Origin: Macrocystis pyrifera
Lineage: Eukaryota > Sar > Phaeophyceae > Laminariales > Laminariaceae
Length of the DNA: 64,000 nucleotides
NCBI GenBank assembly: GCA_031763025.1
Contig: JASSKH010000021.1
Coordinates: 1,674,001 to 1,738,000 of the forward strand
Direction of reading: 5' to 3'
This document shows positions 144 to 48,735 of this stretch, piece after piece. Below the pieces are notes generated by a model. That model was not told the origin of the DNA. It did not search any database and was given only the letters and a program-made list of their open reading frames with translations. The stretch's first letter is position 1. Each line of letters begins with the position of its first letter. Made by a program: the position numbers and the translations under genes.

Positions 144-191
<48 letters not shown>

Positions 192-295
192 GCTCATGTC
201 ATGCATAGCCGTAGTCGTATGAGACCATAGACCCTCGCATCCCTACAATACCGGGACGGGGCACGTCGGGTTTTCACCGACCAGGCAGACATTGC
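144..295 (-). mobile_element. C-tailed SINE-like copy, 5'-truncated
   Basis: The tail is the G run 144-190 (poly-C on the minus strand). The body ends at CATTGCT, where another G-rich tract starts, so it is bounded by homopolymer on both sides. Confidence 0.7.
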
Positions 296-480
296 TGCCC
301 GGGGCGGGGGGAGGGGTACTCGATGTCATGCATGTACCTGGTACTCGACATCATGCATGGCCGCAGTCGTATGATCATAGACCCTCGCATCCCCACAATG
401 TCGGGACGGAGCAAGTTGGGTTTTCAGCGACCAGACAGACATTGCTCGCACCTGGCGCAGGAGGGCAGGAGGGGGGGGGG
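296..480 (-). mobile_element. C-tailed SINE-like copies, clustered
   Basis: G-rich tail 296-316. The 3' terminal segment appears twice (GTACTCGATGTCATGCATG and GTACTCGACATCATGCATGG), a partial tandem copy. The far side ends in a G run at 471-480. Confidence 0.6.
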
Positions 481-620
481 TCTTACTGTTTCCTCCCCCG
501 TTCTGCCCTATAATGCAACGATATCATAACAAAATCATCTCGCTGAAAACGTCGGGGAGGTCAGACTGCCCGGACTTGAGACTTTCGGACAACCGCCGCC
601 GCCGCCGCTGCCGTTTGCAG

Positions 621-3600
621 ACACAAGTAGCACCGCGGACGGAGCCGACAACGCTGGCGAGATTCGTCGACGGCCGAAAGAAACAGCCGTTTCACTTTCC
701 CCTCCGCGAAATAGATATCGGTTCGATAGGCTCCCGCCAGAGGAGCAGAGGGACCTCGACCGCCGCCTGAAGGATCGAAGGGAACTGGAGGTTAGTTGTC
801 GGATTTATCTGATGTCTGACATCGATACCGGAACCGAGCTCGACACGATACCGACAAAAAAAAAAAAACGGTCGATATGATACCGAAAAACCTAAAAGGA
901 CAACCGATACGATACCGAAAAAAAAAAAAAAAAAACCGAATAGATGCGATTTCGATATTGTTTATTTCTCTTCGAAGCTTTCATCCAGCAGCGTCAGCAT
1001 TAAAAAGCACGGGGACGCCAGGGGATTGAGGGCAAAAAAACACGTTCGATGCGACCTACTGAAAGTTCGATAGTTGGACAGATCGAATTCATCGATACGA
1101 TACCCAACACTGCTGGAGGTGCATTACACGGGATAGTTTTCGGTTAATCGGCGCTGTACTTAGTTGCACATATATTCTGCCTACCAATCTAGACGTAAAT
1201 AGAAGTACCGTTGGGGTGTTCCTAGTATTTTTATTCCGTTCGATATCCGACGGCGTGCAATCCTATATATATATTACCGTTGTTTTGACCGTTAGAGTTC
1301 GCACAGGGGTTGCGGTCGTTTTTTAAGAGCGCTCGATTTTTTTTCCTAACGACGGGACTTTTTTGTTGTTGTTTGTTTTTTGCCAATATACCAATACCTA
1401 ACACCAAGGTGTTTACGGGGGGGGGGTACAAAAAAAAAAAAAAATGGTTTTGAAAATTTATGAGACTCCCGAAAATGTACATGTGACGTCGGCCTTGAGC
1501 TCCCTTTGTATACCGTTGTCGAGAGGCAACACGAGCGCTGAAAAAACGGCCGCACCCCTTCTGTAGGGTAGCGGTCTCGGAAAAAAAAAAAAAATGTACG
1601 ATAGAGGTGGAACCTTTTTTTTTTGTCCCTTATGAGGCAACACTGTCTGACTGCTATTAAATAATACGCTCGACAACTACTGAGGAACTGACTACCCAAG
1701 AAAGCATATACCTTACCAGGCATGCACTGTCCCATTTTTTTGTTCGCAATGTGATTCGAAGAACATACCCTACAATATCCCGAGATGAAGCGCCTATTTA
1801 CACGAAGTGAAAAAGGAGCTCCAGAAAAAACAGGCGTTACCCCAATATACCATACCGTGGTTGAATTATGGGGCAGGGTTAGGTCAGGTCAGGTCAGGTC
1901 ACGAGCATCGAACTTATTTTTCCAGCTGGCGGGTTTGTCCAAAAAACAGGCCGCGTTGATCTGCCAAGTGGAAGAGAAGCGGAGGCGACGAGAACGCGAA
2001 GAGAAGGCCAAGCGCGAAGAGGACGAGGCTGACCGAATCGGGGTGCTCAAGGCCCTTGCCGAAGACCGTGCGGCGTTCCGCGGCAGGTGTTACGACTGCC
2101 GACGCGTCTTTGCCTTGCAGGGGTGGCACCTAATTTCATTCGGCAATGGTATAAGAGCTCTTACGCCTCACCCCCAAAAAATGATTCTGATAAAAATCTG
2201 AAATAGCAACCCTATGAAAACTCCGAAAGCCCAAGAATACAGCCATACGTATAGTATCGAAAAAAACCGAATGGTGTTCCGGCGATAGCGGGGTGAGGAG
2301 CTCGATCAGTCCCAGTCACAGTTTCGCCAAAAAAAAAGGTACCTCTAACGTAGCACACACCTCTACCCACTACACTTATACTTTAATGCTTCTGCCGTAG
2401 ACTACAGTAACGTTTAAACCCGTTCAGACCTTGACCCTTTAGGACTGTTAGGACTGCAGTCCCGTTTTGTGGGCAAACTACTTGGAATTTGAGTGCTGTG
2501 TCCCCTGAACGGGACTGCAGTCCTATATAAAAGGGCTCGAGGGCTGCACTCACTCCCATCAGCCATTGTGGAGGCAAGTCACTTGGAGTTAGAGTCATGA
2601 TCAGGTTCCTGCACTGTGCACCAGCATAAAGGTTGGTTAAAGCAAAAAACGAAAAACGTAACCCTACGGAGGGATATTCGGGGGGGGGGGGAAAAAAAAA
2701 GCGACACCACACTTTTTTTTTTTTTTTTTTTTTTCCCAGACCGGGGGGGGGGGGGGGGCGGGGTGGGGTTGTACTCGATATCACGCATGGCCGTAGTCGT
2801 ATGACCATAGGCCCTCGCATCCCTACAGTGCCGGGACGGAGCACGTCGGGTTTTCACCGACCAGGCAGACATTGCTTGTACCAAGCGCAAAGCGCCGTGA
2901 GGTGTCCGGCGAGTCGCATTAAGGGTGAGCTGCATCATCCTACTACGAACCGCCGCTAATTAAGCGGATTTTCTTGCTTATGGATGGCAGCGTCAATGAA
3001 TTGTTCTTTTTCTGGTGTGGCTACTTCCATAGACAGCAATGGGGGTATTATGTGACTGCCTCGTGGGTGCTTTGCCACAAATAAACACAACGTGATGCCC
3101 ATCAATCCCCTTGCGCGGAGCAAAGGTCATCTACCTCGCACAACTAATCTAAACTCGATCGCCAGCTGTGACCGACCGCCAAAAAAAAAAAAATGGTACC
3201 GTGGTGGTCCAGCTCATGTAGGGGGGCGGGGGCGGTGTACTCGATACTATTCATGGCCGTAGTCGTCGGGGGGGGGGGGGGGGGGTTACTCATTTGTTGC
3301 TTGCCTTAGTCATTTGACCATATTGACCACGCATCCCTTTCGAGACGGAGCACCGTTCCTACTCCTAATAGAGGCACCTCCAACAGTTGGGCGCTCGTTT
3401 CGTTGTTTCCATATGTTACATAGACACCTCCAACAATTGGGCGCTCATTACGTTGTTTCCATACATTACATAGAAACTTCTTGCTAGTCTTATCCCCTTC
3501 CTGTCTCGCCGTAGTCGTGGAGGGGGGGCGGGGGTAAATCTACTAAAACCAAGTGAACAAAATTCTTGAAAGAAAAAAGTCAGTATTCGTGATTCGTCCA

Positions 3601-6600: not shown

Positions 6601-7125
6601 CAGGGAACCATCTATCTATCTGTTTGCCCCCAGAAATATCTAGATCATGAAACGGCAATCGATCGTCCATCCGAGGTGCCAATTATTCCCTTGTGCGAGT
6701 CGATGATGGAGGGTGAAATAATTTGCAAGACTGGTAGTGTACGTTTGGTCAAGGGCAAGCCAAAATAAAAAACAAATCGAATCCCCACTTTTATCCTTTG
6801 AGTTCCATAGAGGAGGGGGGGGGGTGTACTCGATAAGAGAGATGTACTCGATCTCATGCATGGCCGTGGTCGTATGACCATAGACCCTCGCATCCCTACT
6901 ATGCCGGGACGGAGCATGTCGGGTTTTCACCGACCAGGCAGACATTGCTTGCATCAAGCGCGAAGCGCCGTGAGGTGTCCGGCGAGTCGCATGAAGGGTG
7001 AGCTGCATCCTACTAACAACCGCTTGTGAGGCGGACTTGGATATGGATGACAGGGGGGGGGGGGGTATTGCTAAAACCAAGTGAAACAAAACTGACACCC
7101 CACTCTTATTTTTTAGCCCTAGACA

Positions 7126-7157
<32 letters not shown>

Positions 7158-8743: not shown

Positions 8744-9051
8744 GGTGGTCCCGCTATTGTGCCGGTTTTGTATAGATAGTGCCGGTTGTCCGCTATAGTG
8801 CCGGTGAAATCGCTTTGGCACAGATACAGATGGGATTAACCTTTGTGGTACATTAGTGTGCGGAGTAATTAGTGCCGGTTGCCGCTAGTACGGGGGTCCA
8901 TAGTTAATGGGACCAAATTTTGTTAGTAAAAGTAGGCAAATATATAGTTTTTTATGTATACCATAGGTCCTATTATCTGTGGACCCCCGTAATAGTATAC
9001 CGCCGGTATTGTTGGCTAGCGCATATATACCGGCACTATATAGCGGGACCT
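8744..9051. mobile_element. MITE-3, with nested MITE-1
   Basis: GGTCCCGCTATTGTGCCGG to GGCACTATATAGCGGGACC; the outer ends are inverted (GGTCCCGCTAT / ATAGCGGGACC), which defines the element borders. Confidence 0.68.
8886..8994. mobile_element. MITE-1 inside MITE-3
   Basis: Interrupts GCCGCTAGTATACYGCC of MITE-3. The flanks show TA on both sides. Confidence 0.78.
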
Positions 9052-9113: not shown

Positions 9114-9608
9114 TTCCCCCCCGCTCATTAAGTGAGCTAGACAACCAGGGCACCGTTTTTTTTTTTTGTTTTTTTTTTTTTTTTTTGTTTTGGCGGTCGG
9201 TCACAGCTGGCGATCGAGTTAGATCATTCGTGCGGAGCGGAGAACCTTTACTCCGCATAGCGGGGAATTGACGTGTGTTCCGTAGTGTTTGTCGTACGGC
9301 ACCCACTATAGGCAGTATCATGGTATCTGGATTTGGCCACACCGGAAAATATAATAAGTCATTGAAGCTGTCATCCATACTCAAATCCACCTCACGAGTG
9401 ATTCTTAGTAAGATGCAGCTCACCACTTCATTTGACTCGCTCAACACCTCACCGTTCGCTTCGCGCTTGGTGCAAGCAAGGTCTGCTTGGTTGGTGAAAA
9501 CCCGGCGTGCTCCGTCCGTCCCGGCATTGTAGGGCTGCAAGGGTCTGTGGTGATACGTCTACGGCCGTGCATGATATTGAGTACACCCCCTCCTCCCCCC
9601 CCCCCCCC
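9114..9608 (+). mobile_element. C-tailed SINE-like copy, near full length
   Basis: Starts after a short C run and contains GTGAGCTAGACAACCAGGG followed by poly(T). It ends ATTGAGTACA with a C-rich tail. A LINE copy begins directly after the tail. Confidence 0.7.
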
Positions 9609-9610
9609 AA

Positions 9611-10372
9611 CCCACTAGCAGAGGAGTTGATAGAACTGTATGGAAGAAAGTAACAAAAGGGCGAGCTGGAATAAGGTGGGATGGCGTACTTGAGAAAGTA
9701 TGGAAGGATATTTGTGGAAACCAAGAAGAGATAATGTCCGCCGGGAATTTTGGGAGATACAAGGCAGAAGTAGAAGAAATGATAGAAAGAGGGGAGAGGC
9801 TAGCGCTAAGAAACAAGGTAGAATCGGAAAAACACTTAAGAGATATACGGGGAATGGAGGAAAGGAATAGGAACGAAAACGTATTTGCATGGCCCGATGG
9901 ACTTCGCGAAAACGCTGAAACTGCGCTTTCGTGTAGGGGACCTGGACCTGCCAGAAAGAAGAAAGAGGTATACCAGTAGCCGGGAGGAGGAGGAAGTTGA
10001 TGCACAGATGTACCCGTGTGGCAAAGCAATAGAGAGTATCACATAGTAGGAAAATGTGAAATATACAAGGAGAACGGGATGTGTTAGAAGAGGAGATGAG
10101 GGAAATAGACGAATGTGACACGGAGGAGTTTGATACACTGGATAGCAGCGAGAAAACGATCGCTATCCTAGGAGATAGATGGTGGCCACAGGCGGCCAGA
10201 CAGGAAGGGGATAATGTTAGCAAAATGTTTCCGTGTAATATATGGAAACAACGTAATGAGCGCCCAACTGTTGGAGGTGTCTCTATTAGGAATAGGAACG
10301 GTGCTCCGTCTCGAAAGGGGTGCGTGGTCAATGGTCACATGACTAAGGCAAGCAACAAATGAGTATGCTCCC
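9611..10372 (+). mobile_element. LINE, C-terminal part of ORF2, C-tailed
   Basis: Non-LTR retrotransposon fragment. The decayed frame shows a LINE-type Cys/His knuckle region around YPCGKAIESITH and KCEIYKE, then a conserved segment (MREIDECDTEEFDTLDSS, ILGDRWWPQAA, IWKQRNERPTVGGVSI). It ends MTKASNK-TGA-GTAT and a C-rich tail. The stop codon is four bases from the tail. It begins right after the C tail of the upstream SINE-like copy. The RT domain is not in the window. Confidence 0.65.
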
Positions 10373-10376
10373 CCTA

Positions 10377-10640
10377 CCCACTAGCGGAGGAGATGAGGAA
10401 AACAGACGATTGTGACATGGAGGAGTTTGGTACACTAATAGTACTAAGAAAACAGGAAGGAGGGGTTATGAACGACAAAAAAAAACTATGTGATGTATGG
10501 AATCGACGTCATGAGCGCCCACCTGTTGGAGGTGTCTCTATTAGGAGTAGGAGTGGTGCTCCGTCTCGAAAGGGATGCGTTATCAATGGTTAAATGGCTA
10601 AGGCGAGCAAAAAATGAGTACGCCCCCCACCCCTTCCCTC
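10377..10640 (+). mobile_element. LINE 3' end, second copy
   Basis: Starts CACTAGCGGAGGAGATGAGG after a C-rich stretch, carries an internal deletion relative to the first copy, and ends AAAAAATGAGTACGCCCCCC. Confidence 0.6.
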
Positions 10641-10858
10641 AGGGGGGATGCCTTATTGTCGGATGGCAAACGCAAGAATAACAATATCACTATGTTCCTA
10701 AATACTAGGACAGGTTGTATACTAAGATTCATACATAAGGGTCCTTATTTTATCCCATTTGCCAACTGACAATGCGTAGCACTCATTCCAATCATCATAC
10801 CACCATCCACATATGAAAGGGTTGCTGGAATCCAATGACGTGGAACATGGAAGGTGCT

Positions 10859-10967
10859 ATTTACGGGGGATCATAGTAAATAGGACGAAATATTGCTAGT
10901 AAAAATAGGGAAATATATAGGTTATTGTGAGTACCGTAGGTCCTATTTACTATGGTCCCCCGTAATA
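10859..10967. mobile_element. MITE-1
   Basis: TTTACGGGGGATC to GGTCCCCCGTAATA. Confidence 0.78.
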
Positions 10968-11230
10968 ACAAGAAAGACAGCCTGCGATTTACAGGAACTT
11001 AAGGAATTCAAGAAATTCGTTATGCTGAAGTTAGCGTTAAACGCACCCCCTTTTTTCAAATAAGAAAATTCATCCCGGACAAGCTTTCCTGTTTCTTGTC
11101 ACGAGAGTAGGCGCCCGGTACTATCGCTCGAGCCATTACTGAACTTAATCTCATCCGCCCAAGCTTATATACAATCCATTTTTTTTCGTCATATCTTCAA
11201 TGCAACGTGTATGTTTATTTTTCGCCGTAC

Positions 11231-11579: not shown

Positions 11580-12010
11580 CCCTTGCTAGGTTTGCCTTGT
11601 TGAGCAGGTGCTCGTTGGGAGCTCACGTGTGTTGATTGCTGTGAGATAAGAAGGAGAGCAGCTGTACTCCTTTCGAGCACGATGAGTGACCGAGAGCAGG
11701 GTTCGTGCTCTCGCCGGGAAACCCCGGAGACGGCGTTCTTATGTCGGGACGCTTTGTATCCCTTGCTACTACGGGGGACCATAGTAAGTAGGACCAAATA
11801 TTGTTGGTAAAAATAGGTTAATATAATGGTGTTTGTGTGTACCATAGGTCTTATTTACCATGGTCCCCCGCAATAGGTTTGCCTCTTGAGCGGGTACTTG
11901 TTGGGGTTCACGTACACTGATCACTTAGAGATAGAAAAAGAGCAGCTTTATTCCTTTCCTGCCCGAGGAGGGACTGAGAGCAAGGCTCGTGCCTCTCGCT
12001 GGGATCTAAG
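11580..12010. repeat. Imperfect tandem duplication, ~175-bp unit
   Basis: Two units start at TATCCCTTGCTA...GGTTTGCC (11578 and 11758), with diverged bodies (GAGAGCAG, GGGTTCGTGCTCTCGC versus AAGGCTCGTGCCTCTCGC). MITE-1 sits in the second. Confidence 0.6.
11767..11875. mobile_element. MITE-1 inside a tandem duplication
   Basis: Inserted at the TA of CCCTTGCTAGGTTTGCC in the second unit; the first unit (near 11580) keeps the empty site. Confidence 0.8.
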
Positions 12011-12195: not shown

Positions 12196-12742
12196 CTGAT
12201 TTGCCCCCCCCTCCCCTGTTTGGTTTGGTGTGGTGTCGGTTGGCGACGACGCTGTGAAACACGCCTCTCACCGCGTGAGCTAGACAACCAGGGTAGTTTT
12301 TTTTTTTTTTTTTTTTTTCGGTGGTTACCACGACTGGCGGTCAAGTTATTAGTAGATCATTTTTGTGCGGGGGAGAACCTTTACTCCGCACAAGGGGGAC
12401 GATCGTATCACGTAGTGTGTATACGGTGAGGCACCCACGAGGCAGTTACGTAGTAAATCCATTGCTGTCTCTGGAAGCGGCCACACCAGAAATTCAATCA
12501 ATTCGTTGATGCTGCCATCCATATGCAAGAAAATCCGCCTCTAAAGCGGTTCTTAGTACCAGTAGGATGACAGCTCACCCTTCATGCGACTCGCCCAACA
12601 CCTCACGGCGCTTCGCGCGCTTGGTGCAAGCAATGCCTGCCTGGTCGGTGAAAACCCGACATGCTCCGTCCTGGCATTGTAAGGATGCGAGGGTCTATGG
12701 TCATACGACTACGGCCATGCATGATAATGAGTGCACTCCCCC
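12196..12742 (+). mobile_element. C-tailed SINE-like copy, full length
   Basis: Begins after a C-rich tract and shows the 5' segment CGACGACGCTGTGAAACACG, poly(T) at 12298-12319, the body, and a 3' end ATAATGAGTGCACT with a C tail. It is the most complete copy together with 40017-40538. Confidence 0.7.
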
Positions 12743-12819: not shown

Positions 12820-13432
12820 TACTTAACCTTAAGGTTGTTGTTCGACCTTGAGTCGGTTCATTGACCTTGAGTTGGTTCATTGATTTTAAGTTGGTTTTGA
12901 CCTTTTAAGTTAGTTCAATGACCTTAAGTTGGTTCATTGACCTCAAGTTGGTTCATTAACCTTAAGTTGGTTTATTGACCTTGAGTTGGTTCGATGACCT
13001 TAAGTTGGTTCATTGTTACATTAGTAATATGAGGGTCAAAAGACACATTGTACGATGGGGGAGCACCTACTTTTTCCTGAGGCTTTCCGATGGAGCAGCT
13101 CTATACCCCACGCAAACACTGATTGCGAGAAAAATAACGGAACTGCACCTTAAGTTGGTTCATTGATCTTAAGTTGGTTTATTGACCTTAAGTTGGTTCA
13201 ATGACCTCAAGTTGGTTCAATGACCTTAAGTTGGTTCATTGATTTCAAGTTGGTTTATTGACCTTGAGTTGGTTCAATGACCTTAAGTTGGTTCCTTGTT
13301 ACATTAGTAATCTGAGGGTCAAAAGACACATGGTACGATGGGGGAGCACCTACTTTTTCCTGAGGCTCCCCAATGGAGCAGCTCTATACCCCACGAAATC
13401 ACTGATTGCGAGAAAAATAACGGAAGTGCAAC
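12820..13432. repeat. TTAAGTTGGTTCATTGACC minisatellite with higher-order duplication
   Basis: Units of ~20-22 bp fill 12820-13016 and 13143-13298. A ~140-bp non-repeat segment starting TTGTTACATTAGTAAT occurs after each block (13010 and 13290), so the whole ~280-bp block was duplicated. It lies just upstream of the gene B start. Confidence 0.75.
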
Positions 13433-13485: not shown

Positions 13486-14857
13486 ATGGCGCTCGAACGA
13501 TACAATGATTGGGCAGAGTTTGTCGGGTAAGGAGCCAACGGAAAGCATTTTTGGCAGAAAACAAAAGGGTTAAAAAGAGGGATGCTACTGTTTGCTGCTA
13601 AATTTCCCGACTTTTGGATTTTTTTTTTCCCGTTTTCCCTGTTTTTGTCGGCAGTAACGGCCTTAACCCCCCCCCCTCCCCGGTGGCCTCAAACGGCGAA
13701 ACAGGAAGGGCATGACATAAGAAAAATTGAGCACCCAAATGTTGAATGGTTGTCTCTATTATTAGGAGTAGGAACGGTGCTCCGTCTCGGAAGGGATGCG
13801 TGGTCAATGGTCGAATGGATGAGGCAAACAAGAAATGAGTACGCCCCCGCCTGATTTTCCTGGGTTTTGTTTTTAGCCCGAAAGAAGAACACTACAGTAA
13901 GCGTCCCTGATATATTTCCCTCTAGTTAAATTTCCTGATTTAGGAAACGTTCCCTCTTTTTTATCCCTGTTTTCCTTTATTCGTTTTTTTTTCAAGAAAA
14001 GGCGGAAAATCAGTAGAAAAGAGGACGCGTTCTACAATAGAGGTAGCACATTTCCGCCATTTTTTTTTCTGAGTGACGGGGTTTCTTAACCCCAAATCGC
14101 CGTAATGACAATCCGCTTTCGAAAATGACGTTTTTTCGTATGCTTGGTTCATGGGATTACTCATCGGGATGCAATTTGAATTTTGCTGAAGTCAGTTTTC
14201 GGATGAGGTATGAAGCTCCTTAAGGTCAGGTGAGGAGCCTCAGAAAAATTAGGGCGAACCTCTATCGTAGAACGCCTCCAGGGTCCCATCTTCGATATTA
14301 TACGTACAACAGCACCAGGTAGTGGGATGTAGTGGGGCACACATTTTAAGACCGTCCGTTTTTTAAAGGCTTTTCGGGAGACAAACCGCCTTATTGACAC
14401 AAAAAAATAGCAATCGGAACTACGGTAGTATGGTCAGAAGTAAAAAAGGCGACACCATACCACTTTGGACGTTAACATAAGGACCGCTTGGTATTCATAT
14501 TAACGAATAAACGATTTATATTTCCGGTCGGAGTGCTAAGTATCAGAGCTAAAGCCGTGTGCATTGAGGTGTCACGGGATGTTCTTGAAAAAGTAGGTAC
14601 GAGTACCCCACTGTAGTAACATAATAACGGCCTTCACTCGCACCCCCCGTTCTCACCCCCGTGGCTGCCCTCACTTCTTTGCTCTTTTTGTCACGGTCGA
14701 ACGCGCGCCGGTGTGTCGCCGTTTTATTGTACTTTCTTGTGGCAGGCTCTTGCAGAGGTTCGAGCATCCAGACGGGAGCCAGCAGCCCCACGGAGACGTC
14801 GGCGCATTCCCCGGCGTATTTTCGACACCTTCGCGACCAAACTACCCCTATTATTGA
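13486..14857 (+). CDS. Gene B: candidate small two-exon gene, ~50 residues
   Basis: The first exon, 13486-13526, starts at an ATG in good context (A at -3, G at +4), encodes MALERYNDWAEFV and ends at a strong donor, CGG|GTAAGG, in phase 2. The last exon, 14746-14857, follows a pyrimidine-rich tract ending TGTGGCAG, starts in the matching phase, opens with LLQRFEHPDGSQQPHG and ends with a TGA after PNYPYY. The phase match and protein-like composition support it. The 1.2-kb intron contains a 5'-truncated LINE fragment. The start lies just downstream of a TTAAGTTGGTTCATTGACC minisatellite. There may be further internal exons. No family was recognised. Confidence 0.4.
13668..13851 (+). mobile_element. 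LINE 3' end in gene B intron
   Basis: A C tract (13668-13680) directly precedes CGGTGGCCTCAAACGGCG; the end is AGAAATGAGTACGCCCCC. Confidence 0.6.

Positions 14858-15669: not shown

Positions 15670-15741
<72 letters not shown>
15670..15741. repeat. Poly(C), ~71 bp, no recognised retroposon body
   Basis: Preceded by GATTAC. One of several orphan C runs with TAC at the left border. It may be the tail of an extremely truncated insertion. Confidence 0.6.
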
Positions 15742-15812
15742 TTTCCCTTTCCCACCCGGGGAGACTTGTGTAAGACCTATACATACGTAGGGGGGAAATG
15801 TAGTGCGCCCAA

Positions 15813-15909
15813 CTGTTGGAGGTGTCTCTATTAGGAGTAGGAACGGTGCTCCGTCTCGCAAGGGACGAGTGGTCAATGGTCAAATGACCAAGGCAAGCAG
15901 CAAATGAGT

Positions 15910-15941
<32 letters not shown>
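15813..15941 (+). mobile_element. LINE 3' end
   Basis: Runs from GCGCCCAACTGTTGGAGG to CAACAAATGAGTAC followed by a 31-bp C tail. Confidence 0.6.
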
Positions 15942-20391: not shown

Positions 20392-20918
<527 letters not shown>

Positions 20919-21735: not shown

Positions 21736-24735
21736 CTGTGGTGGGCAGTCGAAGGGCGAGAGAGGGCAGAAGCAGGAGGAGCCGCTCTGCTCGTGTAGGC
21801 CGAATACCTCGAGGAGGATACCCCGCCGCTAGAACCCGCGCTCGTGCCCAAGAGTTCCTCGCCTGCGTCTCTGCTGAACAGATACGGGGGTTTTCGTGTA
21901 GATAAAATCGCGTTGACGAAAAGGGGAACGAATGACTTGGGGAGGAAATACCATCAAGTCTCCAAACATAAGGACCCTTTCCACCACCACCAACACCGAC
22001 ACCACTTCCAACCGACAGCACCAACACCACCACCACCACCACCAATAAGAACAAGAACAAGAACAAACCACCAACAATATCACCACCAACACCCACCAGC
22101 ACCAGCACCAGCACCAGCACCAGCACCATCAGCACCGACTGACCGCACCTTGCTTCTGTCATGAGATGCATCGCCTCCAAGTTCATGGCGGACATACCCC
22201 TTAGGAGGGTGCGCCGCATCCCTTCCTCCATCTCCCTCTGTCTCGCCTTCTCCTGCCCTCCCAACAAAAAACATACCAGGCACATCCCACATCACCAAAC
22301 AGGTCGACACGACGACCATGTCCGTGGACGCCGAGTAGAGCCGACGCGGTCGGAGCATCGGAGCAGAGCAGCGGTGGCGCGGGGGTAAGGAGGAGGGGGA
22401 TGGGTGCTCATGTCATGCATGGCCGTAGTCGTATATATGACCATAGACCCTCGCATCCCGACAATGCCGGGACGGGGTCTTCACCGACCAGACAGACACT
22501 GCTTGCACCAAGCGCGAAGCACCGTGAGGTGTTGGGCGAGTCGCACGAAGGGTGAGCCGCATCCTACTATTACGGAGGACCATAGTAAACAGGATCTGCG
22601 GTACACACAAAACCTATACATTTCGCTACTTTTACTAACAACATTTGGTCCTATCTACTATGGTCCCCTGTAATAAGAGCCGCTTGTGAGGCTGACTTTC
22701 TTGAAAATGGATGATAGCGTCCAATTGCTTTCTTTGGGAAGGGGTAAGGGGACAAACGGATCAGAAACAACACAACATGCAAATACAGTATATTTCGAAG
22801 AATACCGCATTTTTTTCAAGAACAAAATCGCACAGAGCACAAAAACGAACAAACATCGTATTATTTTGCGTATAATATCACGACACGCCGGTCGACTTGG
22901 AACAGACATTCGAGAACAAAAAACGGAACACGAGAAAGAGAACTCGTACATATGGAAACGATCAACAGCTACGTCCTATATATGCGCAGATTCGGAACGG
23001 AACATAAAACGGCACTCGCGGTTATGCTTGTGCTTACCAGGACGATCTGTTTGTTGGCGTCGTCGAGAGCAGTCCGTGTGCTCGACAGTTCTGCCTCGTA
23101 TCGCCCTGTATGGAAAGCAGACGGGACAAAACACAAAACTTCAGGTGCAACTCAGTGTATGCACACACCATCCATACGTGGTATAGGATGACAAACACCA
23201 ATGCATAGCAAGCTACTTGGTACATAAAAACGCGGGGGGAACAGGCAGGGTTAAGAAACATCCGGGACAACAAAAAAGCGGGATAATCAGCATGCAAGAG
23301 GCAAGAATGTAACAAGCGGCATAATAAACATGCGGGGTAATAAGCCGACGAATACCGGGTACAGTATTAATAGCAGTACTGAATAAAACGTCGGAGAATA
23401 TACTGGCGGGACAACAAAATACGCGCCAAAGTGAACATGCGGTAAAACAAAACAGGAGGAGTATTGAACATGTGGGGTGAGAAAATCGTGGTATAATAAA
23501 CACGTGGTACAGGAAACAGGCCGGGCGAGTGATCGTCTGTAGGCACGGCCGTCAGAATTCCAGGATCAAAGTTATCAAACTTACCCGCAAAGGCCGCATG
23601 TTTATTCCCCTCTCTCTTTCCCCCCCCTGCACTTTCCTTAGTTTCTATCGCGCATAGGCTTTTCATCATGTGTCACCAAAACAGGCGGTATACATTAGGT
23701 TGGTACATTCTGCCAAAACAATCATCATGGGCAGCAGTCGTGACCAAAACGATCAAAATAGCAAGCGGTACGTACGAAAATACAACCTAAAATGGTCACA
23801 ACAGGCGGCATAATACAAAGATCAACATCAACGTTACCAAAACGGTTGAAAAAAATGTAAGCGTTTATGTGCACTTACTGATCATCTCAAGACGAAAAAT
23901 GACCAAAACGACCTAAATTGTAAGCGTTTTTCTACCGCACTTGCCAATAATCTCCTTTGTAATGGCGTGCAGTTTGAGGTCCGCTGCCTTCCTCCCCCTC
24001 GTAGCCGAACGAAGTCGGGCTTCATCACGCCAAGCGATCAGGGTGCTCGATACCAGCTTACGCCTATCGCATCACAAGGGCGGCCGAAGACAACGTCAGA
24101 ACAAAAAAGACGACAGACAGACTTGGGTGGCCGTGTAGACTCTACTGTTGTTGCTCTGTTCACATTAACTCATCTTCGGTGGTCACAGGTCACAGGACAG
24201 GGTGACAAAAAAAACTGAAACCGTAGCAATACCGCCCTTCTCGGATGTGATCGAAGTACTATTCACAACAAACAAGGATTTTCCACCTACTAACCGAAAG
24301 GTAACTGCATGCTAATAACCGTATCGTTCCTTGCGCTAAACGTAACCCGTTAGACTAAGTCAAGTCGCTGAGGCCGGAAAAAAAAAAAAAAAACGAGATA
24401 ACCAAAACGTGGCTCTAGCTTTAGTAAAAGACAGAAAAGAAGACAAGGCGCGCAAGGTGGTCAGGGGGTGGGGGAAGGCTGGGTTGGTAGAGGGTGCAGC
24501 AGCGCGCCTTTCGAGACTGTGACCCTGCCGGGGGGATAACATGGTTGGAATGAGCGTGGGAAAACGTTTTCACACGCCGAACAGATCATTATTTCGTATC
24601 TTGATTACCTTTGTCCAGAAATCCCACCCCACTTTTTTTTTTTTTTCTTTCTTTCGCTTTTTTCATGTTTACCTATTTGGGAGTGAGGTGTCGTTTCGTC
24701 TTTTTACCGTTCGCCCCTGATAGACACAATCACAT

Positions 24736-27700: not shown

Positions 27701-30700
27701 ATAAATAAATAAAAATAATATACAATAAAAAAAATTAAAAAGTAAAAAATAACTAACACAATGAAACCCACCTAGCGTGTGCCGTGGCAACCTCGCTCTT
27801 AGAACGTTCTCTGCGCGCTCGCCTGGCGTTGGTTCGCCAGGTGGAGAGACAGCGGGCGACGGCGGAGCCGTGGGAGGTGCGCGCGTGGATCGCCGACAGT
27901 CGCTCGCCGAGGACTTGCGCCTTCGCGGCTAGGGCTACGTTCGCGCTTTTAATAGGAGGGCGGAAAAACAGGAAGAAAAAAAAAGAGAGAGAGGGAGGGA
28001 GGGAGGGAGGGAGGGAGGGAGGGATATACACAACGCCGATGGAGCCGATGTCGGCAAGCGCGTGGGGGGGGGGCGTACTCATTAGTTGCTTGCCTTAGTC
28101 GTTTTACCATTGGCCACGCATCCCTTTCGAGACGGGGCACAAGCGCGTGGGGGGTGTGTGTACTCGATACAATGCATGGCCGTAGTCGTATGACCATAGA
28201 CCCTCGCATCCCTACGATGCCGGGACGGAGCACGTGGGGGGAGGACGAAAAGCAGGCACTTGAGTCATGGCGGTGTCGTGAGGTGGGGGGTGTACGTATT
28301 GCATACTTTGTTGCCGGCCTTCGTCATTTGACCATTGACCAAGCATCCCTTTCGAGACGGAGGGTATGGGGGTCTAGCTAGCGATACGTTGATATTCGAC
28401 TCGAATCTCGACACCAAGTGACAGGCATTCGCAGCGTGTGCGCGGACGAGGGGAAGGCTCGGAACCGCGTTCGACAGTCCGATGACGGGCAGGGGAGACA
28501 CTACCACCACTTGCAACGACACCACCACCACCACCACCACCACCATATTGGGCCGAAGGGACAACCCCCACTACTCAGACAGCGTATCCCTTCGGCCCAA
28601 TAAAATATACGGCCGCCACACCGTTCCCAATAACAACAAAAGCAACAACACCATCACCACATATACTCAAATATACGAGCGAACAAAACTCACGCCGCTA
28701 GGTCGGTGGCATGGTCCCTGAGGGATCTCGCCTCCTCCTCCAGCCGCCGAATCTCCCTCCCGCTCTCGTTCTTGTGAGCGTCCAGTCGAAGCCGACCGGC
28801 CCTCGTAGCCCTCTGAGAGGCTGCCTTCAGCCCCTTCCTCGCCGTCACCAGGAGCTGCAAAGAGAGAGGGGGATTTACACGGGGAGGGGGGGGTATACTC
28901 ATGAAATGCATGGCCGCAGTCGTATGACCATAGACCCTCGCATCCCTACAATGCCGCGGCGGAGCACGTCGGGTTTTCACCGACCAGGCGATATTCGCTA
29001 ATGCACCAAGCGCGAAGCGAAACGTGAGGTGTTGGGGCGAGCATTACGGGGGACCATACTGTAGTAAATAGGACCAAATATTGTTGGTGAAAATAAAATA
29101 CACGCAGGTTTTACTGTGTACCCTAGGTCCTATTTACTATGGACCCCCGCAATAGCAAGAAGGGAGAGCTGCATCCTACCAAGAACCGTTGGTGAGGTCG
29201 GCTTCGATTTGCATATGGGTGGCAGCTTTCTACCAAATCGATTCGTTTTCTGGTGTGGTCACTTACAAGGGGGGGGGGGGGGGGGGGGGGCTTATTTTCT
29301 CAAGAGCCGTGCTACGGTGGAGGTTTTACTTGATTACAGTGTAGCTCAGACGTTTCCCATCGACGGGGGAGCTCCACAACTGGGGGAGCTACCCAACATA
29401 TTTGCATCCGATGTGTATTGCATGCTATAATTTGCAAGCCCATTCGATGTACATCGGGTTTAGCATCCGACCAGTATTGCGTGTCATTTTTTGTAAGCCC
29501 ATTTGATTGCGCGTCGGGCTTAGCATCCGATGTGTATTGCATTATATCATTTGCAAGCCCATATTATTGTGCATCGGGCTTAGCATCCGATGTGTATTGC
29601 ATCTGACTTTTTTTTGCAAGCCCATTCGATTGTGTGATGGGCTTGTACAACACACAAAATTTCTCGACATGAGTATCGGGTGGGAGATAGAGCCCCTTTA
29701 CAAGAATCAAGCGAGGACCCTCAGAAACGTACGAGGTAGGGGCTACCCACACCGTCTAAGAAGTGCTACATTGAGTGAGAGATATGAAAACGCAAAATAC
29801 CCAGGAGAGAAAAGTCTACGAAAGCATGTTCGAGAGCATGCAATTCCCAAGTTTTCATCATCGGTCGAAACAATTCAACCATGTTCGTATAGCGAGCCGC
29901 ACAGTCGGATAGTTGGCACCGAGACCAACCAACCAATACGGAGGTCCATAGTTAATAGGACCTATGGTATACATAAAAACCTCTGTATTTACCTATTTTT
30001 ACTGACAGTATTTGGTCCTATTTACTATGGACCCCCATAATAGAGCCCTTCAACTCATGCTCGCCACAGCATTTACACGGAGCCAATCACAGTAGTGGTC
30101 CCTCTATAGTGCCGACTGCCCGCTATAGCAGTGCCGGTGAAGTCGCTTGGCACAGCTGGGATAAACAAGTGCGGTAGTGTGCGGAGGAATTGGTGCCGGT
30201 TGGTTGCCGCTAGTATACTGCCGATACTGTTGGCTGGCGCATACATACCGGCAATATGAAAAACCACCACTGTAATACCTACCCGGCGACTTTTAGTCAT
30301 CCAGCTTACCGCTCTGTACCAATTCTACGTACTAGCCAGCTTCATCTCAGAAACGTCGGTGCAGTTTCTTAACCCTCAAGACCTCTGCGGAAAGTACCCA
30401 ACTCTCATCCCAACTATTACGGGGGGGGGGGGGGGGGGTGTGTACTCATTGTCATGCATGGCCGTAGTCGTTTGACCATGGACCCTCGCATCCCTACAAT
30501 GCCGGGACGGAGCACGTCGGGTTTTCACCGACCAAGAAGACATTGCTTGTACCAAGCGCGAAGTGCCGTGAGGTGTTCGGCGAGTCGCATGAAGGGTGAG
30601 CTGCATCCTACTAAGAACCGCTTGTGAGGTGGCCTTGCACATGGACGACAGAGTCATTTTTTTTTTTTTTTTAATCATCACTTTTACTTTCCAGCCTAAC

Positions 30701-32505: not shown

Positions 32506-32630
32506 GGGGGGGGGGGGGGGGGGGGGGCGTACTCATTTGTTGCTTGCCTTAGTCATTAGACCATTGACCACGCGTCCCTTTCGAGACGGAGCATCGTTCC
32601 TACTCCTAATAGAGGGGGAGGGGGGGGCAG
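32506..32630 (-). mobile_element. LINE 3' end
   Basis: G run 32506-32527 then CGTACTCATTTGTTGCTTGC; the other side ends in GAGGGGGAGGGGGGG. Confidence 0.6.
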
Positions 32631-32669: not shown

Positions 32670-32745
32670 AAGCGGGGCGGTTGTACTCGATATCATGCAT
32701 GGTCGTAGTCGTCGTATGACGAGGGGGGGGGCGGGGGTCGACTAG
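32670..32745 (-). mobile_element. C-tailed SINE-like copy, 3' end only
   Basis: About 50 bp of the 3' terminus with G-rich tracts on both sides (32674 and 32724). Confidence 0.5.
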
Positions 32746-32849: not shown

Positions 32850-32996
32850 GTAGGAGGGGGGGGGGGGGGTGTACTCGATAGGAGAGATGTACTCGATTTC
32901 ATGCATGGCCGTAGTCGCATGACCATAGACCCTCGCATACCTACAATGCCGGGACGGAGCATGTCGGGTTTTCACCGACCAGGCAGAAGCGGTTGG
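32850..32996 (-). mobile_element. C-tailed SINE-like copy, 5'-truncated
   Basis: G tail 32857-32868; ends at CAGGCAGAAGCGG against the next copy's G tail. Confidence 0.65.
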
Positions 32997-33217
32997 GGGG
33001 GGGGGGGTTGTACTCGACATCATGCATGGCCGCAGTCGTAGGACCATAGACCCTCGCATCTCTACAAGGCCAGGAAGGAGCACGTCGGGTTTTCACCGAC
33101 CAGGCGAAGATTGCTTGCACCAAGTGCAAAGCGCCGTGAGGTGTTCGGCGGGTCGCAGGAAGGTTGACCTGCATCCTGCTGAGAACCGCTTTCGGGGTGG
33201 ACTCTAGGGGGGGGAGG
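32997..33217 (-). mobile_element. C-tailed SINE-like copy, 5'-truncated
   Basis: G tail 32996-33007 and a second G-rich tract at 33208-33217. It follows the previous copy head-to-tail, consistent with insertion into an existing tail. Confidence 0.65.
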
Positions 33218-38606: not shown

Positions 38607-38777
38607 CCCCCCCCCCCCCCCCCCCCCGCCCAACACCTCACGGCGCTTCGCCCTTGGTGCAAGCAATGTCTGCCTGGTCGGTGAAAACCCGACGTGCTCC
38701 GTCCCGGCATTGTGGAGATGCGAGGGTATATGGTCGTACGACTACGGCCATGCATGACAATGAGTACCCCACCCCCT
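38607..38777 (+). mobile_element. C-tailed SINE-like copy, 5'-truncated
   Basis: Preceded by a C run (38607-38626); begins CCCAACACCTCACGG and ends ACAATGAGTACCCC. A LINE 3' end follows at once. Confidence 0.65.
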
Positions 38778-38789
38778 GGCAAAAGTTTA

Positions 38790-38950
38790 TATGTAATATA
38801 TGGAAACAACGTAATGAGCGCCCAATTGTTGGAGGTGTCTCTATTAGGAGTAGGAACTGTACTCCGTCTCGAAAGGGATGCGTAGTCAATGGTCAAATGA
38901 CTAAGACAAGCAACAAATGAGTACGCCCCCCCTCCCCCCCCCCCCCCCGC
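38790..38950 (+). mobile_element. LINE 3' end
   Basis: Starts in ATGTAATATATGGAAACAAC and ends CAACAAATGAGTACGCCCCC. It follows a SINE-like tail. Confidence 0.6.
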
Positions 38951-39965
38951 CGCCCCCCCACCCCTTCTCCCCTTCCTCCCTTTTCTCCCCCTTCCCGCCC
39001 CGCACCGTTTTATTTTGCCTCATTCCCCCCCCCCCCCCCCCCGCTCTTCCTTTCCTATCCACCCCAAGCAGGCGTAGCTTTCGGTTTCCTGCTTCCCTAC
39101 AACTACGTTGCGTGTTTTTTCTCGTTTCTACCGTCGGTTTTCTGGTCGGCGCAATCTTTTAATGCGTCGGGGAGGGAGACCCTTCGGCGGCAGCCGAATT
39201 AGTCCCATTCTAAATCCAAGTAGTTTGTTCCCAAAACGCAGTTCTTGAGGGGTTAAGACGGGGTGGGGCAAAAATGGAATCGATGAGGGTGGCTTGTGGA
39301 GGGGGATGGTCGAGAAGGGAGGGGAGGGGGGACCGGGAGCGGTGGCGGAGGACGGGCGGGGTTGTGCTGTTTTCATTTGTTGTCGCTGGCTGTGCTGGGT
39401 TAAACGAAATCCGGCGTGATCGAAGGCCGATCTCGACAAGCTGCCTTATTCGAGGACGTAGACTGCTAGCTCAGTGGATTGTGGTGTATGTCTGACTAAA
39501 CCCCAATCGGGAACCCATCTGGCTTTTAGCCCTCTTATCGCACTCTAATACCAAGCAGTTTGTTCCCAAACTTTGGTGCGTGTGGTTCTCGTACCTCAAC
39601 GTTTTACCCATACGTGTACACTGGAGTATCTAACCGACTGCGAAGTAGGCTTTTGCTACTGCCAAAACGCATCCTACATAAATAACAAGTATTTTGTCCC
39701 CAAAAACTTGCGTGCAGTTAAAGGGGATACGCACGCTCGGGAGTTTGCGGCTGGTTGCATCGCAGATGCCATCACGCAACCACAAAAAAGAACAATTGGT
39801 TTCTTCCTTGAGCTCTCTCTTCTTCAAAGCAGCTGGCGCAAAGTACACTACTAGTCCGCCCTGGAGTCTAAAATCGTCCATCCTTGGGCGATCTCGTGTT
39901 TTCGTCTCAATCACATTTAGCCGACCCGACGCAAAGTATTTGGTCCAACCACGGGTCTCGAAATA

Positions 39966-40538
39966 CCCCCCCCCCCCCCCCCCCCCCTATATTATATACC
40001 TGGTATATACATAGCTTGGGTTGGCGTCGGTTTGCGACGACGCTGTAAAACACGCCTCTCACTGCGTGAGCTAAACAGCCAGGGTACCTTTTTTTTTTTT
40101 TTGGGGGGGGGGGGGGCGGTTCGCGCGGCTGGCGGTCAAGTTAGATCATTGTTGTGCAGGGAGAACCTCTACTCCGCACAAGGGGGATGATCGTATCACG
40201 TAGTGTGAATATGGTGAGTCCCCCACGAGGCAGTTACATAGTAAACCCATTGCTGTTTCTGGAAATGGCCACGCCAGAAATAAAATCAGTCCAGTGATGC
40301 TGTCATCCATATGCAAGAAAATCCGCATCTAAAGCGGTTCTTGGTAGGATGCAGCTCACCCTTCATGCGACTCGCCCAACACCCCACGGTGCTTCGCGCT
40401 TGGTGCTTGGTGCAAGCAATGTCTGCCTGGTCGGTGAAGACCCGACGTGCTCCGTCCCGGCATTGTAGGGATGCGAGGGTCTATGGTCGTACGGCTACGG
40501 CCATGCATGACAATGAGTACCCCCCCCCCCCCCCCCGC
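39966..40538 (+). mobile_element. C-tailed SINE-like copy, full length
   Basis: A C run lies ~30 bp before the 5' end (39966-39987), poly(T)/G at 40088-40115, then the body and GACAATGAGTAC with a C tail 40520-40535. A LINE copy follows directly. Confidence 0.7.
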
Positions 40539-40816
40539 AGGGAAATATACGAAGGTGACATGGAGGAGTTTGATACAATGAATAGCAGCGAGAAAACGAC
40601 CGCTATCCTAGGAGACAGATGGTGGCCACAGGCGGCCAAACAGGAAGGGGGGGGGTGAGACTATTAATAGTATAAAGTGTCTATGTAATATATGGAAACA
40701 ACCTAATGAGTGTCCACAATTGTTGGAGGTGTCTCTATTAGGAGTAGGAACGGTGCTCCGTCTCGAAAAGGATGCGTGGTCAATGCTCACATGACTAAGG
40801 TAAGCAACAAATGAGT

Positions 40817-40852
<36 letters not shown>

Positions 40853-47732: not shown

Positions 47733-48473
47733 CTACGGTGTTCGGCCCCAGACAGTACCCTGGCCTGGCTGCCTCTGCCCTATGTTATCCGTCTCTGCTA
47801 GTTTACGAGATACGATACCCGCGTCCTCTGGGTTATTGCGGGTGTACGTCTTGGAAGACTCTGGGGACTTCCATCTACCTTCTCTCTGAATCACCCTCTG
47901 CGGTACTTCCCCCCCCGCCGCTAGAGTAGTGGTTGCGCCGATACGCAATGAGTGGAGGCCGACTTCGCTGGGATCGTCTCCTGCTTCGGCAACCACTTCG
48001 CGGAGTGCCCCGAGGGCCTCCGTGTACCCCCACACTCTGACCTCATTACCGTACCGATACGACGACAGGGGGGCGCTTTCCGGCAACGTCGGATATCCCG
48101 ACAGCAACTCCACCATAAGAGCGACGGCACCGCCGCCTGCTCCTACCCCGGAACGCGCCCCGAAGGCGTCGTCCCGTGTGCGCACGATAACCGATCCTTG
48201 CTGAGCCTGGTCGCCTTTATGGCCTCGAAATAGAACCTCGATGCTGGTAGCCTGGTGCCACTGCGCCGAGTTCAACCGCCGTCCCCCCGCGAACAACGCT
48301 ATGTCCCCCCTCGTCAAGCAATGCACGGGGTGTACTACCCCGGACGAGGAGGCGAATATTTCGTCAGACCTCGCCATGAAAAAAAATAGCCCAACGCTAG
48401 CGACAGCCAGAGCACTCGGCCGCCCGGGCCCCACGACAGGGCCAGGCCCTGTCCTTCCAACAACGTGACCCAC
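47733..48473 (-). pseudogene. YR (tyrosine recombinase) region of the fossil
   Basis: The part of the YR element nearest its 3' repeats shows the family's HxxR signature (LHSLRIGATT) and the downstream GRWKS...TYTR region that includes the nucleophilic tyrosine. The role in the family is to integrate a circular DNA intermediate. It is treated as a fossil component. Confidence 0.6.
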
Positions 48474-48735
48474 GATATAGGGCGCCGAACTCTTTTCGGG
48501 GTACCGGCGACAACGTGCGACCGTGACACCCCTTTTAAAGCGCGTTTGACAAGCGGCGACGACGTGGGCAACTCCATCTGCACATTCACGCGGTGAAAGT
48601 GCAACACAGCTGATAATTTACTGGCTATAGTGCCGGCTTGATTGCCCTCCGACGCGCACCACGCTACGAACTCAAGTAACGCCTGAATCTTATCGGAATT
48701 GGAGGCTGACGTGTCGAAATACGGAGCCTCCCTTA

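Follow-up and report, generated by a model that had tools for sequence, protein, structure and literature searches.

Probable insertion of a C-tailed LINE and a SINE-like partner at poly(C):poly(G) tracts of the giant kelp genome

The choice of insertion site by LINEs has mostly been studied in a few systems, namely rDNA, telomeric repeats and poly(A)/T. LINEs with homopolymer tails are already known, and a 3′ end common to both is how the use of a LINE enzyme by a SINE is usually recognized. TRAS, SART and Waldo belong to the R1 clade. One publication (PMC4640811) describes the R1 clade as APE-type, attributes a restriction-like endonuclease to NeSL-related and HERO elements, and lists the (TG)n-specific Togen families and the microsatellite-specific HERO families among the non-LTR elements that target microsatellites. 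Here, two C-tailed repeat families are described, a predicted APE-type LINE and a SINE-like partner, for which the target appears to be the C homopolymer itself.

The window, i.e., the whole stretch of 64 kb that was analyzed, has a GC content of 49.6% and is part of a Macrocystis pyrifera genome assembly of 537,376,219 bases in 223 sequences. The published giant-kelp assembly comprises 35 scaffolds and 188 contigs (223 in all), 537 MB with a GC content of 50.37% and 57.6% of the genome repetitive, and is based on PacBio Sequel II reads at ~100x assembled with Canu and Racon (PMC10498591). All C-run lengths reported below are lengths as assembled. Homopolymer length is a weak point of assemblies of the PacBio, Canu and Racon type; the C runs are therefore credible as such, their exact lengths not. 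A first look at the genome gave 3,114 candidates with the LINE piece and 5,928 with the SINE; scoring covered 40 from each set. The loci were picked as best matches to the window copies or as the first places listed, and the sample is thus not random. After removal of 6 duplicates from 147 copies, the set used for border statistics consisted of 141 copies, 25 in the window and 116 elsewhere in the genome; loci repeating others or the window (L005, L008, L009 and L043) and copies lying <60 nt from a record start or <150 nt from a record end were left out. Across the genome, the exact string GAGTAC+C10 occurs 6,789 times, compared with 40 occurrences of the reversed pattern.

Two repeat families with a common 3′ end

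An initial annotation, made from the window alone, counted about 18 SINE-like and 10 LINE copies ending in GAGTAC + C(n), and this count was reproduced: blastn gave 16 places for the SINE-like family and 10 for the LINE (two rows that were split or of low complexity being left uncounted), and two further short SINE ends were recognized by eye at about 3246-3267 and 32690-32722. A stricter script that demanded the 3′ end retained 15 SINE and 10 LINE copies, which are listed in Table 1.

Table 1. Copies of the two families, and features associated with them, in the 64-kb window
Feature	Position	Strand	Remark
SINE 3′ fragment	190-296	-	C47 tail (as G 144-190), followed by a SINE cut by the window start (130-1)
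SINE 3′ fragment	341-481	-	
SINE	2771-3221	-	5′ border C-rich
LINE 3′ part	3286-3510	-	C18 tail (as G 3268-3285)
SINE	6844-7053	-	C13 (as G 7053-7065) at 5′ border
SINE, near full length	9121-9584	+	5′ flank ends in C run; 3′ end GAGTAC + A + C-rich tail
C14 of SINE tail, target of next LINE	9595-9608	+	
17-nt target-site duplication, upstream copy, ACCCACTAGC(A/G)GAGGAG	9610-9626	+	1 mismatch, by eye
LINE 3′ part, 5′-truncated	9625-10366	+	Tail C-poor
17-nt target-site duplication, downstream copy	10376-10392	+	By eye
Older LINE copy, 5′-truncated	10382-10621	+	
SINE, near full length	12225-12734	+	C8-T-C4 at 12204-12216 just upstream
LINE 3′ fragment	13682-13842	+	Upstream C10 at 13667-13676
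LINE 3′ fragment	15805-15911	+	C31 tail 15911-15941
SINE	20428-20773	-	5′ border, TAA, then 141-nt G42-T-G98 run (sense-strand C)
SINE 3′ fragment, counter-example	22404-22567	-	Called 5′ border is a MITE, not a C run
LINE 3′ fragment	28075-28140	-	Duplication C(n)ACGCGCTT(G) on either side
SINE 3′ fragment	28160-28239	-	Sense-upstream neighbour of LINE at 28075
LINE 3′ fragment	28300-28362	-	
SINE	28895-29267	-	C22 (as G 29269-29290) at 5′ border
SINE, counter-example	30442-30656	-	Poly(A) in place of a C run at called 5′ border
LINE 3′ fragment	32529-32614	-	C8 (as G 32620-32627) near 5′ border
SINE 3′ fragment	32889-32987	-	Head-to-tail behind C13 tail of SINE 33010-33201
SINE 3′ fragment	33010-33201	-	C8 (as G 33207-33214) near 5′ border
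SINE 3′ fragment	38627-38767	+	C21 ahead; LINE 38781-38924 next, head-to-tail
LINE 3′ fragment	38781-38924	+	
SINE, full length 533 bp, reference	39988-40520	+	Between C22 (39966-39987) and C17 (40520-40536)
LINE 3′ fragment	40539-40818	+	Behind tail of SINE 39988-40520; C34 tail

The SINE is a short element without a protein of its own, and its 3′ end is common to the LINE. Its extent had been drawn too short in the initial annotation; the full-length form, represented by the reference copy, measures 533 bp and starts as C(n)|TATATTATATACC. Thirty near-full-length copies were obtained from 29 loci (L044-L072, fetched as best matches); 10 of the 30 align from the first base, and seven of the 30 represent one insertion inside a duplicated segment. 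A search of Rfam with one copy (39960-40530) gave no match up to E 5, compatible with a decayed or unusual promoter, and ARAGORN found no tRNA in one copy (39950-40530). With both searches empty, a known RNA family or tRNA was rejected as the source of the SINE, and since no pol III-type 5′ part (tRNA, 5S or 7SL) was found, “SINE-like” is the safer term. In one subfamily (20428-20773, 6844-7053 and 32889-32987), the terminus is briefly repeated (TATCGAGTAC) ahead of the C tail.

The LINE copies of the window are 5′-truncated 3′ pieces of at most about 760 nt. A reverse transcriptase domain (PF00078, RVT_1, E 6.3e-26) was identified in a 687-aa open stretch of L021/L040, a copy from elsewhere in the genome that includes upstream DNA, with matches in PDB to R2 and LINE-1 ORF2p chains, and an APE-like endonuclease domain (PF14529, E 9.5e-07, 29.1 bits against a cut-off of 27.4) was identified in a separate open stretch of L012/L039. 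The PF03372 match of the endonuclease falls below the PF03372 cut-off, and a search of the endonuclease piece against PDB sequences returned nothing at E < 0.09, the matches being mostly monellin. Judged by these predicted domains, the LINE is an APE-type non-LTR retrotransposon. Compared with L012, most of the other copies retrieved are 95-97% identical in their main stretch, and a few 92-95%. In L012, the endonuclease and reverse transcriptase lie in broken frames, and the ORF seems to start near reference position 990, after a MITE. The sequence examined contains 100 full copies of a very common MITE of about 110 bp (TTACGGGGGTCC...GGACCCCCGTAATA), among them 8885-8998, 10857-10968, 11766-11875 and others in the window. 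The frame of the LINE ends at a TGA within the terminal ATGAGTAC, so that the 3′ UTR amounts to 4 nt plus the tail. Among the 35 copies longer than 200 nt, 30 have no interruption in the final 31 codons.

Other classes of element were considered for the LINE. The 281-aa C-terminal piece gave no Pfam match up to E 0.1, a result that alone would not exclude a restriction-like endonuclease; an RLE-type element (R2, R4, NeSL, HERO) was rejected, weakly on the C-terminal piece and also because the APE domain lies upstream of the reverse transcriptase. An L1-type element with a poly(A) tail and an A/T-rich target was rejected since the tail is C and the target a C tract. In viral contigs, the exact pattern was unmatched and P0002 had no relative; a phage origin was rejected, 9114-10640 being unmatched in phage records.

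The SINE and the LINE are homologous over about the last 60 nt, both ending in GAGTAC (blastn, and alignment of 12 copies of each). After GAGTAC, the LINE usually has G and then C (38/59 copies), and the SINE often A and then C (39/82 copies). Homology at the 3′ end and a C tail in both families support the LINE/SINE pairing suggested in the initial annotation, and the SINE is presumably mobilized by the LINE machinery.

Three further features of the window were noted. Two runs, 1417-1426 (G10) and 7129-7157 (G29), adjoin sequence that matches neither family, one of them reading TTGTA + C10 on the minus strand; these may belong to a further repeat with a C tail or represent an empty target. 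An open frame at 47733-48617 (minus strand), with C/G runs nearby, has a weak tyrosine-recombinase match (PF00589) below the cut-off and possibly belongs to a DIRS-like or related element. Finally, a 283-bp duplication at 12826-13430 contains a 19-bp tandem repeat (ACCTTAAGTTGGTTCATTG).

Insertion borders, duplications and empty sites

The 5′ borders were scored for C≥6 on the sense strand within -20..+6 of the border. Such a run was found in 106 of the 141 deduplicated copies, and a run of G≥6 in one; the C runs were present in 16 of the 25 window copies (12/15 SINEs and 4/10 LINEs) and in 90 of the 116 copies elsewhere. The proportion among random 26-mers of the window is 2.1%, and control windows displaced upstream scored 18/141 at 60 nt, falling to 7/139 at 180 nt. 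Among the 100 MITE copies used as a further control (not deduplicated, 21-nt flanks), one had C≥6 upstream and one a G run downstream. The last C≥6 run reaches the border itself in 40 copies and stops 1-3 nt before it in 23, 4-8 nt in 29 and 9-15 nt in 15. The distance is thus 0-15 nt in 107/141 copies, compared with about 2.2% of random positions. In 10/141 copies the last run lies 16-60 nt before the border, and in 24/141 there is none within 60 nt. Chance does not explain the 5′ C runs. A C≥6 run is absent from the called 5′ border of 35 copies, in some of which the border reflects a nested insertion or a break in the alignment (for example 22404-22567, 30442-30656 and L037).

The initial annotation had described the 5′ ends as abutting a run in nearly every case. 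For the intervals it cited, matching-strand G/C runs of the same orientation are indeed present at the interval ends. The LINEs of the window are the weakest subset. The C72 at 15670-15741 lies 63 nt upstream of the LINE at 15805 and thus away from its border. The longest run it gave, 141 bp, was recovered as assembled (G42-T-G98, 20777-20917). Of the 52 C/G runs ≥8 in the window, 25 have no matching-strand copy within 45 nt. Neighbouring copies ≤80 nt apart have the same orientation in all 54 pairs (not deduplicated; 9/9 in the window), and pairs 80-3000 nt apart comprise 21 in the same and 9 in opposite orientation.

Target-site duplications were sought as a sequence X common to the 5′ border and the sequence following the tail; an earlier test that allowed any common X was too lax (X≥4 in 30%, compared with 22% of controls) and was superseded. 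An X of ≥4 nt was detected in 14/141 copies, against 2.6% of mismatched pairs, and an X of ≥7 nt in 9/141, against 92 of 18,918 mismatched pairs (0.5%); these nine include two with a C-rich X (L013 and L072) and two at one site (L049). The LINE copies are 3′-anchored and 5′-truncated, with short target-site duplications in a minority that is enriched over the control. Examples in which the duplication takes the form C(n)X are L024 with C(n)TCCCGCCGC, L015 with C(n)ACCCGAGC, L071 with C(n)TCCCACCTC and the window copy at 28075-28140 with C(n)ACGCGCTTG. Beyond the C tract, X varies among targets, and the C tract is the common part. Most copies have no detectable X, as would be expected if both cuts fell inside the C run, an outcome indistinguishable from no duplication; the short spacers between C run and border may represent X in C(n)X duplications.

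The duplications also bear on the order of insertion. The 17-nt duplication flanking the LINE at 9625-10366 was recognized by eye, the exact-match scripts having passed it over; on its 3′ side it extends into the 5′ end of the LINE at 10382. Since the duplication takes in the first bases of that LINE, the LINE at 10382 is older and the insertions were sequential. At L049, GGCATCG borders both a SINE and a LINE, as if one site had been struck twice. In three full-length SINEs (L049, L062 and L070), about 7-11 extra Cs were seen by eye between X (4 nt in L062) and the start of the SINE, which indicates that not every 5′ C run is pure target. Full-length SINE copies may thus carry or gain a 5′ C run; transcription from within an upstream C tract and addition at the 5′ junction would both explain the extra Cs.

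Empty sites were sought among paralogues within the one genome. A genome search with the joined flanks of a LINE site (L030) gave 11 rows: seven spanning the junction, two at the filled locus, one of the right flank alone, and one of a left piece beside one of the seven. All seven junction-spanning paralogues (L073-L079, 80-86% identical to the flanks) carry a C run, the longest uninterrupted runs being 10, 6, 12, 10, 7, 8 and 5, and the filled site has C13 before the LINE and C42 after it. In an inverted repeat (L011), the empty arm reads C9-GTGGGACGA and the filled arm C26-GTGGG|LINE|GAGTAC-G-C8-T-GTGGGACGA. The excess of C at the filled L030 and L011 sites over their empty paralogues suggests that the target grows upon insertion or by later expansion. 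The L046 locus includes a minisatellite with units C(n)..TCAGTTGAGGA that starts at the C tail of a LINE and houses further insertions; its C tracts contain a LINE and a SINE, next to units that are empty. For L060 and L050, the joined flanks retrieved filled copies only and no empty site (18 left and 17 right half-matches for L060; 2 copies for L050). A local search under strict settings, covering 73 usable copies, yielded no convincing empty site; other local searches were swamped by C runs or by neighbouring elements, and flanks masked for the elements, applied to 56 copies, gave three cases, further matches for L065 and L024 being set aside as apparently low-complexity or unrelated. The expectation of the initial annotation that empty sites would be short C/G tracts thus holds for the paralogous empty sites at three loci (L030, L011 and L046), which belong to one genome and not to another strain. 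Its central proposal, that the pair targets C homopolymer, is supported by the border statistics, the C(n)X duplications in a subset of copies, the nesting and the paralogous empty sites.

Target-primed insertion and competing explanations

These observations make it very probable that the APE-type LINE and its SINE-like partner insert at poly(C):poly(G) by target-primed reverse transcription and thereby enlarge their own target. The RNAs of both would end in ...GAGTAC(G or A)C(n). The G strand would be nicked within or at the edge of a C tract, and the G-ended primer would pair with the C tail of the RNA, just as poly(A)-tailed LINEs prime with T. Reverse transcription would run on, often stopping early and leaving a 5′-truncated copy, and the other strand would be cut a few nucleotides downstream, so that C(n)X would be duplicated. 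The new copy would have C runs on both sides, and its own target would be enlarged. We infer the G-primed step and the presence of the C tail in the RNA. A self-enlarged target would account for both the head-to-tail clusters and the long C runs, as the initial annotation had supposed; the sequential nesting at one site, seen by eye, and the uniform orientation of close neighbours agree with this. Rather more tentatively, although the balance is in its favour, the LINE may possess an endonuclease and a priming step dedicated to poly(C):poly(G) and, with its partner SINE, create its own landing sites and so multiply C homopolymers throughout the genome of giant kelp, and perhaps of other brown algae.

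A version of this explanation, which does not exclude it, is that the endonuclease has little sequence preference and that C tracts are chosen by annealing of a G end to the C tail, not by cutting. Only the C tract is common to the targets, the X that follows being variable, and poly(A)-tailed LINEs generally rely on a homopolymer tail that pairs with the primer; the Pfam-supported APE domain, however, suggests a cut made by the enzyme, though not a G-specific one. Choice by annealing alone is accordingly regarded as possible and somewhat doubtful.

A second alternative is that the 5′ C runs were made during insertion, by a jump of the reverse transcriptase from the 5′ end of the RNA to another C tail or by untemplated addition of G, so that whole arrays arose in one event at random targets. 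Template jumping would give close pairs of one orientation, as found in 54/54; the order X-C(m)-SINE at L049, L062 and L070 and the greater amount of C at the filled L030 and L011 sites also point in this direction. Against it, truncated copies (L024, L015, L023, L071 and 28075-28140) have C(n)X flush against the element and X again beyond the tail, an arrangement that assigns C(n) to the original target; moreover, the paralogous empty sites already have C tracts, and the 9610/10376 duplication includes the 5′ bases of an older LINE, indicating sequential insertions. This alternative is therefore very unlikely. Least credible of all, and close to negligible, is a later addition of the C runs, by homopolymer expansion, gene conversion or assembly error, beside elements without C preference: the run lengths come from a type of assembly in which homopolymers are a weak point and filled sites have longer runs than empty ones, but the placement is strand-specific (106 C against 1 G), the empty paralogues have short C tracts, and C/G runs are rare beside the MITE copies.

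Comparison with known systems

In open-access full text, a corpus outside which Repbase and most subscription journals lie, no C-tailed LINE/SINE pair targeting C tracts was found, in agreement with the initial annotation, which knew of no described poly(C)-specific pair. The novelty lies in the poly(C) target for a familiar kind of element, the targeting of simple repeats being itself known (PMC4640811). Because tail and target consist of one base, a homopolymer-C pair makes it simple to test which of the two chooses the site, the enzyme cut or the pairing of RNA tail and primer. The pair also provides a concrete cause for the long C tracts of the kelp genome, which have consequences for assembly, for unusual DNA structures and for strain markers, and a self-made target predicts runaway clustering, which is measurable.

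The kelp elements resemble human L1 and Alu in combining an APE endonuclease and a reverse transcriptase with a homopolymer 3′ tail, 5′ truncation and a SINE partner; in both systems, the nicked target strand complements the tail, and the duplication starts with the tail base. Unlike in L1, the tail and target are C/G and not A/T, the target looks restricted to C tracts, and the LINE is almost without a 3′ UTR, the ORF stopping 4 nt before the tail; unlike in the Alu/L1 pair, the SINE has about 60 nt in common with the 3′ end of the LINE. TRAS and SART, which insert in telomeric repeats, and Waldo, which inserts in microsatellites, are likewise sequence-specific LINEs of simple repeats; the kelp LINE differs in that its target is a C homopolymer and its tail is the target base. 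From Togen and HERO it differs in its APE domain. Compared as proteins, LINE-like sequences of Ectocarpus are 58% (P0001) and 62% (P0008) identical to it over the aligned part, and P0001 retains a similar C-terminal coding end, NNAPSSRGRVVNG.
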